Shown one piece after another: positions 4,542 to 63,267 of a DNA stretch of 64,000 bases (positions within the stretch are counted from its first letter, which is position 1; every line of letters begins with the position of its first letter). The stretch spans positions 62,001 to 126,000 of the forward strand of contig JAHBXW010000008.1 of assembly GCA_019636235.1 (NCBI GenBank), given 5' to 3'. The position numbers and the translations under genes are program-made. Below the pieces are notes generated by a model. That model was not told where the DNA came from. It did not search any database and saw only the letters and a program-made list of their open reading frames with translations. This DNA comes from Planctomyces sp. GTDB taxonomy: Bacteria; Planctomycetota; Planctomycetia; Planctomycetales; Planctomycetaceae.

Positions 4542-4547
4542 TTTGAC

Positions 4548-4615
4548 GATGGCGATGGAGTTCGCCTTGAACCGCCGGGGGGTGATCGCCTCCCGTGCTG
4601 ATGACTCCTACCGGT
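4548..4615 (+). ncRNA. Fluoride riboswitch (crcB motif)
   Basis: The conserved blocks of the fluoride aptamer appear in order: GGCGATGGAGTTCGCC at 4551-4566, AACCGCC at 4570-4576, and GCTGATGACTCC at 4597-4608. The pairings expected for the class can be drawn: GGAGT (4557-4561) with ACTCC (4604-4608) as P1, GGGGGG with CCTCCC as P2, and GGCGA with TCGCC as the pseudoknot. A short ACCGG/CCGGT inverted repeat (4610-4621) follows and may belong to the expression platform. It stands 67 bases upstream of the CLC-F gene, its known partner class, so fluoride should switch the antiporter on. Confidence 0.92.
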
Positions 4616-4687
4616 CCCGGTGGGAGTGCGCGCTTGTCGGCTCTCTCTTGCCGCGACTCCTTGATCCTGCCCCGGGAGACCAGCGGC

Positions 4688-6127
4688 ATGATGTGGCGAC
4701 TGACGTTGCGGGAGCACGTAGGGCTTTCGGTCTATCTGATCAAATGGCTGCTGCTGGCGACGCCGGTCGGGATCGTGGTGGGTTCGGCCTGTGCGCTGTT
4801 TCTGTGGTCCCTGGATCGGGCGACCCACCTGCGGTTCGAGCATCCCTGTCTGCTGTGGCTGCTGCCGGTCGCGGGCGTGTCGGTCGGCGGGCTGTACTGG
4901 CTGTTCGGGAAGTCGGTGGAGGGGGGCAACAATCTCATCATGGATGAGATTCACGAACCGGGGGGCGGCGTGCCTGTCCGGATGGCCCCGCTGATCCTCA
5001 TTGGCACGATCGTGACGCATCTGTTCGGCGGATCGGCTGGCCGCGAGGGGACGGCCGTGCAGATGGGCGGCAGCCTGGCGAGCTGGCTGGCCCGCCAGTT
5101 GCGCGGGCTCGACCGGCACGACGTCCGCAGGTTGCTGATGGCCGGCATCGCCGCGGGCTTCGGCGGCGTGTTCGGCACGCCGGTCGCCGGGACGATCTTC
5201 GCGCTCGAGGTGCTGTCGATCGGCCGCATCACTTATGCCGCCATTCTGCCCTGCCTGGTGGCCAGCATCGTCAGCGATCAGACCTGCGTCTGGTGGGGCA
5301 TCGGCCATACGCATTACCGGATCGCGAGCCTGCTGCCCGCGGGATCGGAACTGCACCTGGCGCCCCTCACCCCCTGGTTGCTGGCCTGCACGGTGCTGTG
5401 CGGCATCGTCTTTGGCCTGACCAGCGTGCTGTTCGCGGAATCGGTGCATGGCCTGCAGCACGTGTATCGGAAAGCATGTCCGTGGGCGCTGCTCCGCCCC
5501 GCACTGGGGGGGCTGGCGGTGGTCGGCCTGGTGTGGGCGACGGGGACGCGGGACTACCTGGGTCTGGGGGTGACGTCGCCCGATCCGGGGGCCGTGACGA
5601 TCGTCAGTTGTTTCGAGCCGGGGGGGGCGGCGACATGGAGCTGGCTGTGGAAGCTGGCGTTCACGGCGGCGACGCTGAGCGCCGGCTTCAAGGGGGGCGA
5701 GGTGACGCCGCTCTTTTTCATTGGCGCGGCGCTGGGGAACACGCTGGCGAGCTGGCTGGGCCTGCCGGTCGATCTGTTCGCCGGGCTGGGGTTTGTCGCG
5801 GTGTTCGCCGGTGCGACGAATACGCCGATCGCCTGCACGATCATGGCCGTGGAGCTGTTCGGCGGGGAATACACCGTTTACTTCGCGACGTGTTGCCTGG
5901 TGGCGTACCTGTTCAGCGGCCATACGGGGATTTACCTGTCGCAGCGGATCGGGGAGCCGAAGCTGGCGACGCCGGACTGGTCTCCGGAGTCGTCATTGCG
6001 GGACGCACGGGCCTGGCGGGCGGGCGTGCGGGCCGAGGCGTCGGCCGGTCGGCGGGACGACCAGTCCGCGGGGGACGGCGCCGGCGCGGAGGCTCACCCG
6101 CGTAGCGCATCGCCGCCGGCGAATTGA
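4688..6127 (+). CDS. CLC-F type fluoride/proton antiporter
   Basis: This is a 479-residue membrane protein of the CLC chloride channel/transporter family without a cytoplasmic CBS domain. It would export fluoride from the cytoplasm in exchange for protons. ATG 4688 follows GGGAGA closely. The anion-site loops depart from chloride CLCs in the way described for the CLC-F clade: Asn in the first loop (GGNN, residues 79-82, where chloride types have GSGIP), GREGT at 118-122 instead of GREGP with the gating Glu120 kept, and GGEVTP near residue 337. GATNTPIACTIMAVELFGG matches the conserved late helices. The fluoride riboswitch upstream independently supports the substrate. The C-terminal 50 residues are hydrophilic and Arg/Ala-rich and probably cytoplasmic. 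Confidence 0.9.
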   Translation: MMWRLTLREHVGLSVYLIKWLLLATPVGIVVGSACALFLWSLDRATHLRFEHPCLLWLLPVAGVSVGGLYWLFGKSVEGGNNLIMDEIHEPGGGVPVRMAPLILIGTIVTHLFGGSAGREGTAVQMGGSLASWLARQLRGLDRHDVRRLLMAGIAAGFGGVFGTPVAGTIFALEVLSIGRITYAAILPCLVASIVSDQTCVWWGIGHTHYRIASLLPAGSELHLAPLTPWLLACTVLCGIVFGLTSVLFAESVHGLQHVYRKACPWALLRPALGGLAVVGLVWATGTRDYLGLGVTSPDPGAVTIVSCFEPGGAATWSWLWKLAFTAATLSAGFKGGEVTPLFFIGAALGNTLASWLGLPVDLFAGLGFVAVFAGATNTPIACTIMAVELFGGEYTVYFATCCLVAYLFSGHTGIYLSQRIGEPKLATPDWSPESSLRDARAWRAGVRAEASAGRRDDQSAGDGAGAEAHPRSASPPAN

Positions 6128-59921: not shown

Positions 59922-59949
59922 TTGACGGGCTGAACTGAGGTCGTATAGT
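59922..59949 (+). promoter_or_regulatory. Promoter of nrdJ
   Basis: TTGACG (59922-59927), a 16-base spacer and TATAGT (59944-59949) form a strong sigma-70 promoter. Transcription would start near 59956, just ahead of the two NrdR-type boxes. Confidence 0.65.
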
Positions 59950-59963
59950 GCGACTTGGCGGTT

Positions 59964-60010
59964 ACACAATATCTAGGGCATCCGCCAAGTGGCCACACAA
60001 CCTGTTGTGT
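59964..60010 (+). promoter_or_regulatory. Pair of NrdR-box-like operators
   Basis: ACACAATATCTAGGGC (59964-59979) and ACACAACCTGTTGTGT (59995-60010) resemble the 16-base NrdR box (consensus near acaCwAtATaTwGtgt). Their starts are 31 bases apart, the three-turn spacing typical of NrdR boxes. The second box is a near-perfect palindrome extended to CCACACAA/TTGTGTGG. A 9-base inverted repeat ACTTGGCGG/CCGCCAAGT (59953-59961, 59982-59990) brackets the first box. The boxes lie just after the predicted start site, consistent with repression of nrdJ by NrdR. Confidence 0.68.
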
Positions 60011-60231
60011 GGAAAATCTGTTCACTTTCTGTATTTTTGTTCAGGTTTTTCGCTTCCTCGCCCGATCCCTTCCGTGTGTCGCCGCGATCGCCGCTGCGCC
60101 GCCCGATCGGGGCGCGACGAGGCCGCGACAGCGTTCGAATTCCGGCAGTTGTTCCGCCGTTCCCGCGGGCGACCCGCGTGCGGCGGTGATGTCCTGAAGT
60201 CTGTCTTCCCCTCGCAAGGAGCTGGTGCACG

Positions 60232-63200
60232 ATGCACGGCACGAATGGAGTTTCCGCGCCCGCTATGTCGACGTCCGTGACCCCTTCCGCCAGGCAGCAG
60301 CCGATGCGCGTGGCCCCGTATTTCTGTCCGGTCGACGCCGACCCCTTCGAGACCGTCGAATGGGAGAAGCGGACCGCGGCCATCAAGGATGAGAACGGCA
60401 AGGTTCTCTTCGAACAGGCCGACTGCGAGATCCCCAAAGACTGGAGCCCCCTCGCCACCAACGTCGTCGTCAGCAAGTACTTCTACGGCGAGCACCGCAC
60501 TCCCGAACGCGAACAGAGCGTCCGTCAGGTCATCCACCGCGTAGCCCGCACGATCGCCGACTGGGGCATCCAGGACGGCTACTTCGCCACCCGTCAGGAC
60601 GGCGAAACCTTCTACCGCGAACTGGCCTGGCTGTGCCTCCACCAGCATGGCGCGTTCAACAGCCCGGTCTGGTTCAACGTCGGGTTGTACCACCAGTACG
60701 GCGTCAAAGGCTCCGAGGGCAATTACCACTTCGATCCCGTCACCAAGGCCATCCACCGCCCCGAAACCCCCTACGAGTTCCCGCAGGGCTCGGCCTGCTT
60801 CATCCAGTCGGTCGACGACTCGATGACCGGCATCATGCGGCTGGCCACCAGCGAGGCCATGCTGTTCAAGTTCGGCTCGGGCACGGGGACCGATCTGTCG
60901 ACGATCCGCAGCTCGCGGGAGAAGTTGTCCGGCGGCGGCACGCCCTCGGGGCCGCTGTCGTTCATGCGGGTGTTCGACCAGATTGCCGCGGTCGTGAAGT
61001 CGGGAGGCAAGACCCGCCGCGCCGCGAAGATGCAGTCGTTGAAGGTCACGCACCCCGACATCCTCGAGTTCATCGAGTGCAAGTCGCGCGAGGAGAAGAA
61101 GGCCCGCACGCTGATCGACAGCGGCGAGTACGAGTCGAACTTCAACGGCGAGGCCTACTCGTCGATCATGTTCCAGAACGCGAACCTGTCGGTCCGCGTC
61201 ACGGACGAGTTCATGCAGGCCGCCGAGCAGGGGCGCGACTGGACGACCCGCTGGGTCACCGACGCCGCGCAGGCCGGCCCCACCTACAAGGCCAGCGACC
61301 TGCTGGACACCATGGCCGACGGCGCCTGGTACTGCGGCGATCCCGGCGTCCAGTACGACACCACCATCAACCGCTGGCACACCTGCAAGGCCTCGGGGCC
61401 CATCAACGCCTCGAACCCGTGCTCCGAGTACATGTTCCTCGACGACACGGCCTGCAACCTCTCCAGCATCAACCTCAAGAAGTGCCAGCGCGAGGACGGT
61501 TCGTTCGACGTCGACCGCTTCCGCCGGGCCTGCGCGATCTTCATCACGGCCCAGGAAATCCTCGTCGACCATGCCAGCTATCCCACGCCGGCCATCGCCG
61601 AGAACTCCCACCTGTACCGGCCCCTGGGGCTGGGCTTCGCCAACCTCGGCAGCCTGCTGATGTCGATGGGCATCCCCTACGACAGCGACTCCGGCCGCGG
61701 CATCTGCGGAGCCATCACCGCCCTCATGACGGGGCAGGCTTACCTCACCTCCAGCCGCATCGCCTCGCACCTGGGGCCGTTCGCCGGGTATCGGGAGAAC
61801 GAGTCCAGCATGCTGGACGTCATGCAGATGCACCGCGATTCCGTCGAGGGCATCGACCCGTCGTGTCCGGCGGAGCTCAAGGACGCCGCCCGCGTCGTCT
61901 GGAACGAGTGCCTGCAATCGGGGCGGCAGCACGGCTACCGCAATGCCCAGGCGACGGTGCTGGCCCCCACCGGCACCATCGCCTTCATGATGGACTGCGA
62001 CACCACCGGCATCGAGCCGGACATCGCGCTCATCAAGTACAAGCAGCTCGCCGGCGGCGGCATGTTGAAGATCATCAACCGCACCGTGCCGAAGTCGCTG
62101 GCCACGCTGGGCTACGATCAGCCGACGATCGACGGCATCCTGGCCTACCTGGAGCAGGAGGAAACGGTCGAAGGCGCCCCGGGCCTCAAGCCTGAACACC
62201 TCGCCGTGTTCGACTGCGCCTTTAAGGCCGCCAAGGGAACCCGCACGATCGCCTGGAAGGCGCACGTCACCATGATGGCCGCCGCCCAGCCGTTCCTGTC
62301 CGGCGCCATCTCCAAGACGGTCAACATGCCGTCGGACAGCACCATCGACGACGTCAAGCAGGCCTACATCGAAGGCTGGAAGCTCGGCCTCAAGGCGCTG
62401 GCGATTTACCGGGACGGCTCCAAGCAGAGCCAGCCTCTGGCGACCTCGAAAGAGGGGGACCGCAAAGGGAAGAAGGGCTCGGAAGAGCCGGTTCTCGCCG
62501 CCCAGCCGATCCGCCGCCGGTTGCCCGAGACCCGCAACTCGGTCACGCACAAGTTCTCCGTGGGCGGACACGAAGGGTACATCACGGTCGGCCTGTTCGA
62601 GGACGGGGCGCCCGGCGAACTGTTCATCACGATGGCCAAGGAAGGCTCGACGATCGGCGGCCTGATGGACGTCATCGGCACGCAGACTTCGATGGCCCTG
62701 CAGTACGGCGTGCCGCTGTCCGACCTGGTCAACAAGTTCAGCCACGCCCGGTTCGAGCCCAGCGGCTGGACGCCGAACCCGGACATCCCGCACGCGAAAT
62801 CGGTCGTGGACTACATCTTCCGGTGGCTGGGCATGCAGTTCGTGCCGGGCTTCCGGGAGAAAAACGCTCCCCGGCGGGAGGGGGAATACGGCGGGACGCC
62901 TACGGCCGGCGATTCCGCGGGCCCTAAGGTTCCCTCTCCCCAGGATGGGGCGAGGGAGGCCGCGAAGGACTCGACGGGGCCTGTCAGCAGCGAATCGGCG
63001 ACTGCGGTCGCTCTCCCGGTGCTGGCCGTGGCGGCGCCAGCCGCGCTGAACGGAACGAACGGCGTCCATGCGAACGGTCACGCGTCGAACGGGACCCACG
63101 CGGGCGCCCGGGGCGGCTCGGCCCTCGATGGCCCGCAGGTCCGCAGCCAGCAGTTCGCCCTGTTCCAGTCGGACGCGCCGGCCTGCGACAACTGCGGGGC

Positions 63201-63267
63201 GATCACCGTCCGCAACGGCAACTGCTACCTGTGCCACAACTGTGGGCAGAGCATGGGCTGTTCGTGA
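60232..63267 (+). CDS. nrdJ: Vitamin B12-dependent (class II) ribonucleotide reductase
   Basis: The 1011-residue enzyme makes deoxyribonucleotides using adenosylcobalamin and works with or without oxygen. ATG 60232 follows CAAGGAGC. Catalytic-barrel blocks are FNSPVWFNVG, FKFGSGTGTDLS, the active-site NPCSEY (Cys397), CNLSSINL, and the class II phosphate-binding loop APTGTIAFMMD (about 578-588). The C-terminus is a Cys-rich module, CDNCGAITVRNG plus CHNC and a final Cys1010, the redox/zinc tail of this subfamily. Between the barrel (ending about 875) and this tail lies a low-complexity linker of about 90 residues, part of which is encoded by a palindromic repeat (62926-62960). NrdR boxes precede the gene. 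Confidence 0.96.
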   Translation: MHGTNGVSAPAMSTSVTPSARQQPMRVAPYFCPVDADPFETVEWEKRTAAIKDENGKVLFEQADCEIPKDWSPLATNVVVSKYFYGEHRTPEREQSVRQVIHRVARTIADWGIQDGYFATRQDGETFYRELAWLCLHQHGAFNSPVWFNVGLYHQYGVKGSEGNYHFDPVTKAIHRPETPYEFPQGSACFIQSVDDSMTGIMRLATSEAMLFKFGSGTGTDLSTIRSSREKLSGGGTPSGPLSFMRVFDQIAAVVKSGGKTRRAAKMQSLKVTHPDILEFIECKSREEKKARTLIDSGEYESNFNGEAYSSIMFQNANLSVRVTDEFMQAAEQGRDWTTRWVTDAAQAGPTYKASDLLDTMADGAWYCGDPGVQYDTTINRWHTCKASGPINASNPCSEYMFLDDTACNLSSINLKKCQREDGSFDVDRFRRACAIFITAQEILVDHASYPTPAIAENSHLYRPLGLGFANLGSLLMSMGIPYDSDSGRGICGAITALMTGQAYLTSSRIASHLGPFAGYRENESSMLDVMQMHRDSVEGIDPSCPAELKDAARVVWNECLQSGRQHGYRNAQATVLAPTGTIAFMMDCDTTGIEPDIALIKYKQLAGGGMLKIINRTVPKSLATLGYDQPTIDGILAYLEQEETVEGAPGLKPEHLAVFDCAFKAAKGTRTIAWKAHVTMMAAAQPFLSGAISKTVNMPSDSTIDDVKQAYIEGWKLGLKALAIYRDGSKQSQPLATSKEGDRKGKKGSEEPVLAAQPIRRRLPETRNSVTHKFSVGGHEGYITVGLFEDGAPGELFITMAKEGSTIGGLMDVIGTQTSMALQYGVPLSDLVNKFSHARFEPSGWTPNPDIPHAKSVVDYIFRWLGMQFVPGFREKNAPRREGEYGGTPTAGDSAGPKVPSPQDGAREAAKDSTGPVSSESATAVALPVLAVAAPAALNGTNGVHANGHASNGTHAGARGGSALDGPQVRSQQFALFQSDAPACDNCGAITVRNGNCYLCHNCGQSMGCS
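62926..62960 (+). repeat. Palindromic repeat-like element read in frame within nrdJ
   Basis: TCCCTCTCCCC (62931-62941) and GGGGCGAGGGA (62947-62957) form an 11-base inverted repeat with one mismatch and a 5-base loop. Such CCCTCTCCC/GGGAGAGGG-type elements are characteristic of intergenic repeats, yet this one is in the coding region for the linker before the zinc tail. Confidence 0.5.

Follow-up and report, generated by a model that had tools for sequence, protein, structure and literature searches.

NrdR control of class II ribonucleotide reductases (RNRs) is already known from Streptomyces nrdRJ (PMC9110341) and Pseudomonas nrdJ (PMC4409342). In the established model, a dATP/ATP-loaded NrdR tetramer bridges two boxes (PMC9110341), and functional spacers between the boxes range from 14 to 17 bp (PMC12051234), or are one helical turn longer. 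The structure of Streptomyces coelicolor NrdR shows D15 and R17 to be the residues that read conserved G-C pairs in the boxes, and inverting these pairs, which correspond to C4/G13 of the boxes described below, weakens binding 50-fold (PMC9110341). In Pseudomonas aeruginosa, the class II RNR operon nrdJab has two NrdR boxes and is repressed by NrdR, which also controls the class I and III RNRs of that species; its box 1 overlaps the −10 element (PMC4409342). The effective pair at Escherichia coli nrdAB, boxes 1 and 2, lies 15 bp apart in the downstream promoter region, with an extra box 0 in the −10 element and a class Ia enzyme as the target (PMC12176259). An earlier paper remarks on the conservation of NrdR in the PVC group (PMC4989314), and our literature search, with subscription papers outside its reach, found no published analysis of planctomycete NrdR sites.

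The window, a 64-kb stretch of DNA, comes from a planctomycete genome of 5.6 Mb (G000, contig C44) and contains a gene for a class II RNR, nrdJ. The features of the gene and its upstream region are as follows.

59922 to 59949, forward strand: sigma-70-type promoter, read directly, with −35 TTGACG (59922 to 59927), a 16-nt spacer, and −10 TATAGT (59944 to 59949)
59953 to 59961 and 59982 to 59990, forward strand: arms of a perfect, species-specific 9-bp inverted repeat (ACTTGGCGG/CCGCCAAGT) that brackets box 1
59964 to 59979, forward strand: NrdR box 1, ACACAATATCTAGGGC, 14 nt past the −10 element in the initially transcribed region, 13 of 16 positions matching the consensus
59995 to 60010, forward strand: NrdR box 2, ACACAACCTGTTGTGT, a near-perfect palindrome 31 bp from box 1, 13 of 16 positions matching the consensus
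60011 to 60231, forward strand: rest of the nrdJ 5′ leader (∼276 nt in all from a predicted transcription start near 59956), with no Rfam family
60216 to 60221, forward strand: Shine-Dalgarno sequence AAGGAG of nrdJ, read directly
60225 to 60237, forward strand: start-codon inverted repeat GTGCACGATGCAC (GTGCA-CGA-TGCAC), overlapping the ATG at 60232 and found by counting words across the leaders of the nrdJ loci
60232 to 63267, forward strand: nrdJ, adenosylcobalamin-dependent (class II) RNR of 1011 amino acids (PF02867, 466 bits; PF08471, 71 bits; PF12637)

The sequence TTGACG-N16-TATAGT was the sole promoter-like match between 59600 and 60250 (mean of 0.0 in shuffles), and the same scan of the nrdJ upstream region found no terminator-like site. 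To score the boxes, we used ACACWATATATWGTGT, reportedly the NrdR consensus of Rodionov and Gelfand from 2005. In the whole window, just these two boxes had at least 13 of 16 matches; 10 Mb of first-order Markov simulation gave one single site with a score of at least 13 and no pair totaling at least 24 at a distance of 31 or 32 bp. The boxes are 31 bp apart from start to start, with a 15-bp spacer between them. Box 2 extends outward to CCACACAA..TTGTGTGG (59993 to 60012), and the right arm of box 1 reads GGGC, unlike the GTGT of the consensus, as it does in many relatives. These data bear out the preliminary description, which had read a strong promoter here ahead of two 16-base NrdR-like boxes 31 bp apart, the second an almost perfect palindrome. 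It had also proposed looking for the same pair before other nrd genes of the genome; two box-pair patterns run against the whole genome each matched this place, upstream of nrdJ, alone.

The nrdJ product combines the RNR barrel domain with the class II N-terminal domain (PF02867 and PF08471), which places it in class II. It is the genome's sole match to the barrel domain, i.e., its only large-subunit RNR gene, and a Pfam domain search detected no ATP-cone in it. The genome has one nrdR gene, complete and on a separate contig from nrdJ (G000:C19:46563-47000; TIGR00244, 180 bits, above the cutoff). The encoded protein has a Zn ribbon (PF22811) and an ATP-cone (PF03477) and carries D15 and R17 in MLCPFCRQGETKVIDSR. 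A box pair upstream of nrdR itself was not found, and NrdR autoregulation was rejected on that ground.

For the comparison across planctomycetes, we oriented the nrdJ upstream regions of family genomes and named public genomes and de-duplicated them to 90 loci, which are not independent tests because many of them are related. A box pair at 31 or 32 bp was present at P ≤ 0.05 in 73 of the 90, with 55 at the smallest reachable P value (∼0.01). Pair scores of at least 21 occurred in 64% of the nrdJ upstream regions versus 0.3% of shuffles, and the best spacing among those from 20 to 60 bp was 31 bp in 40 loci and 32 bp in 14. The resulting spacers of 15 to 16 bp fall within the functional range of 14 to 17 bp. 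C4 was invariant in both boxes (100% of 62 loci), and G13 was nearly so (97 to 100%). The outer half-sites (the left arm of box 1 and the right arm of box 2) stay near the consensus, and the inner ones drift toward GGG/CCC, most clearly at position 14 of box 1, which is G in 56% of the 62 loci. In Thalassoglobus neptunius (L033), for example, the pair reads TCACTATATCTTGCGT, 15 bp, ACACAATAAATTGTGT. A TTGAC-type −35 element with a 16- to 17-nt spacer and a −10 element precedes the boxes in 69 of the 73 loci; the order of promoter, box 1, and box 2 is kept, with box 1 mostly 13 to 18 nt beyond the −10 element. Box sequence, spacing, and position are conserved in dozens of genera. The preliminary description had staked its reading on an nrdR gene in the genome and on conservation of the boxes and their spacing in relatives, and both were found.

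Since nearly all of the sampled family genomes have nrdR (138 of 150), its presence or absence provides no clean test against the boxes. Some loci have no recognizable box pair, among them L151, whose genome does have nrdR, and some genomes (G009 and G043) have boxes with no nrdR detected, which may reflect assembly gaps. Several variants were also seen. In Pirellulales-type loci (L081 to L109), only box 2 (CCACAACATCTTGCGA, then TAGCATGCAG) is well conserved, and box 1 is degenerate. In the nrdJ upstream regions of L101, L104, L105, L107, and L108, box 2 is followed ∼62 to 63 bp later by a third NrdR-like box, and the stretch separating boxes 1 and 2 contains a conserved GGGCAT. Sister genomes with a distant, class I-like RNR (L165, L168, L170, and L171) seemingly have the best NrdR-like pair of that gene over its presumed −35 and −10 elements rather than downstream of them.

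We interpret the two boxes as one composite NrdR operator that would repress nrdJ from just past its promoter, and we put the probability of this reading at roughly 0.93. Counting against it are the GGGC arm of box 1, the loci that lack a pair, the genomes with boxes in which nrdR went undetected, and the missing box pair before nrdR. The earlier proposal of NrdR control of a class II nrdJ through paired boxes is thereby supported, at the level of sequence, by the box pair, the promoter order, and the target gene. The closest described system is S. coelicolor nrdRJ, which likewise has two 16-bp boxes with a 15- to 16-bp spacer, the C4/G13 G-C pairs, a class II target, and an NrdR with D15 and R17 (PMC9110341). 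Unlike in S. coelicolor, the planctomycete nrdR and nrdJ are unlinked, nrdR lacks a box pair, the boxes of nrdJ are downstream of the −10 element, nrdJ is the sole RNR, and the right arm of box 1 is GGGC-like. P. aeruginosa nrdJab shares the class II target and the two boxes, whereas the planctomycete has a single RNR and its boxes follow the −10 element. The E. coli nrdAB pair is alike in its downstream position and 15-bp spacing but belongs to a gammaproteobacterium and differs in its RNR class and its extra box.

Repression of nrdJ most likely comes about through NrdR sitting on the initially transcribed region. With deoxynucleotides in ample supply, an NrdR tetramer carrying dATP and ATP would bind the two boxes, three helical turns apart, from the same side of the DNA. 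Box 1 begins 14 nt beyond the −10 element, so the tetramer would cover the first transcribed DNA and thereby keep RNA polymerase from binding or escaping, which would reduce nrdJ transcription. A drop in dATP would make NrdR let go, and the strong promoter would then fire. That NrdR binds here, senses nucleotides, and acts as a repressor is inferred from the NrdRs that have been studied. With a single large-subunit RNR gene whose product showed no ATP-cone, the cell probably relies on NrdR as its main dATP feedback on deoxynucleotide supply. The locus would then provide an uncomplicated operator with one target, placed directly after the promoter, and the conserved box pairs point to NrdR-type control of a sole class II RNR throughout Planctomycetes, a phylum that has received little study.

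Alternatively, the repeats might work as RNA: hairpins formed at the start of the nrdJ transcript by the 9-bp repeat and by the palindrome of box 2 would control its stability or early termination. The predicted RNA from 59956 to 60020 does fold into both hairpins (−20.6 kcal/mol), and positions 1 and 16 of box 2, its outermost pair, match at a frequency of 0.60 versus 0.42 if they were independent. However, the fold is not exceptional (z-score of only −1.63), covariation is missing at the remaining symmetric positions of box 2, the 9-bp stem occurs in this species alone, and no terminator-like site was found, so we regard this explanation as very unlikely. We think equally little of the idea that a different regulator uses the 9-bp repeat around box 1 as a second operator. 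The repeat is perfect over 9 bp and brackets box 1 in this genome, but it is missing elsewhere, including in the congener G028, the only other sampled genome of the genus, where the longest Watson-Crick stem is 4 bp; across 73 loci, stems at this position average 3.64 bp, much the same as the 3.41 bp of shuffled flanks. Moreover, a single 9-bp repeat near the boxes is only mildly unusual, because the window holds 43 comparable repeats with loops of 3 to 40, i.e., ∼0.06 are expected per 90 bp. The repeat is probably incidental: it is present as the preliminary description had it, but the second operator or RNA stem that was suggested for it finds no support and was rejected, as the repeat is not conserved.

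It is still less probable that the boxes are read by some other DNA-binding protein and resemble NrdR boxes incidentally. The asymmetry of box 1, with its GGGC arm, and the genomes that have boxes and no nrdR match would fit such a protein, but the 16-bp box, the C4/G13 invariance, the 31/32-bp spacing, and the RNR target are jointly specific to NrdR (PMC9110341, PMC12051234), and sister genomes show such pairs at their class I-like RNR genes as well. A chance arrangement in an AT-rich promoter patch (local GC content of 49% versus 67% for the window) is already refuted by the comparative data, since the boxes keep their sequence, spacing, and location across dozens of genera.

Beyond the NrdR operator, the leader has drifted. 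The median length from box 2 to the match start in relatives is 246 nt. A riboswitch in the nrdJ leader was rejected: Rfam gave no match above the gathering score (at E ≤ 5, only two meaningless matches), and no conserved aptamer was found, since, the start-codon motif aside, no leader 8-mer is common to more than ∼9 of the 73 loci. The exception is the inverted repeat on the start codon. Its general form, GTGCAYGATGCAC (13 nt, GTGCA-YGA-TGCAC), occurs once in this genome, at nrdJ, and was present in about 60 of the 62 Planctomycetaceae-type nrdJ loci, 59 by pattern and one (L004, GTGCAAGATGCAC) by eye; among these loci, it is missing only in L151 and L161. It is absent from the loci of Pirellulales and other groups (L079 to L111). 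An odd motif match in L005 (ATGCACGATGCGC) was rejected as an overlapping copy picked by the search pattern.

Information content is 1.6 to 2.0 bits at 12 of the 13 positions of the repeat and mostly below 1 bit in the flanks. The register of the repeat to the ATG is fixed, and the distance to the Shine-Dalgarno sequence varies by several bases. Part of the downstream conservation, but not the upstream arm, is accounted for by a short set of conserved N-terminal residues (MHxxKG-like). In L073, L144, and L154 (and partly in L070), GTGCA/TGCAC is replaced by ACGCA/TGCGT (ACGCAYGATGCG followed by T or A), which turns codon 2 from His to Arg and probably represents one event or clade. Because both arms changed together with this codon, the variant favors pairing or dyad symmetry over peptide conservation; the variants in L007 and L017 break the inner pair. 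The predicted hairpin probability in context varies across loci, with a median of 0.61, and is 0.16 in this genome.

Any role of the repeat in translational control is a guess. We tentatively suggest, at rather less than even odds, that GTGCAYGATGCAC is a second, undescribed control layer on Planctomycetaceae nrdJ, a putative mRNA hairpin or protein-binding translational operator that would gate production of the B12-dependent RNR, atop the transcriptional control by NrdR. Translational operators of the ribosomal-protein or phage-coat type overlap the ribosome-binding site. The nrdJ repeat is similarly short and fixed on the start codon, with a both-arm variant, but it is only 5 bp and, among RNR genes, is seen only at the nrdJ of one family. 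It is a less expected result than the NrdR operator and, conserved nearly letter for letter amid a drifting leader, offers concrete grounds for testing whether RNR is controlled at one more level.

In genus g38 (L188 to L195 and L197, position about 1501), the GTGCACGATGCAC motif also covers the start codon of a gene for a TPR-type lipoprotein; the sampled genomes of this genus matched only with a distant class I-like RNR and not with this nrdJ. A GGA codon with AAAGGA-like surroundings, lying ∼25 nt downstream of the Shine-Dalgarno sequence within nrdJ codons 5 to 7 (60244 to 60252), shows unusual conservation here and in relatives (G at 0.85 to 0.86 at two positions). Elsewhere in the window, a fluoride riboswitch (4542 to 4617; Rfam RF01734, 52 bits) stands at the front of an open reading frame (4595 to 6127) that we take, by eye, to encode a ClC-type channel/antiporter.
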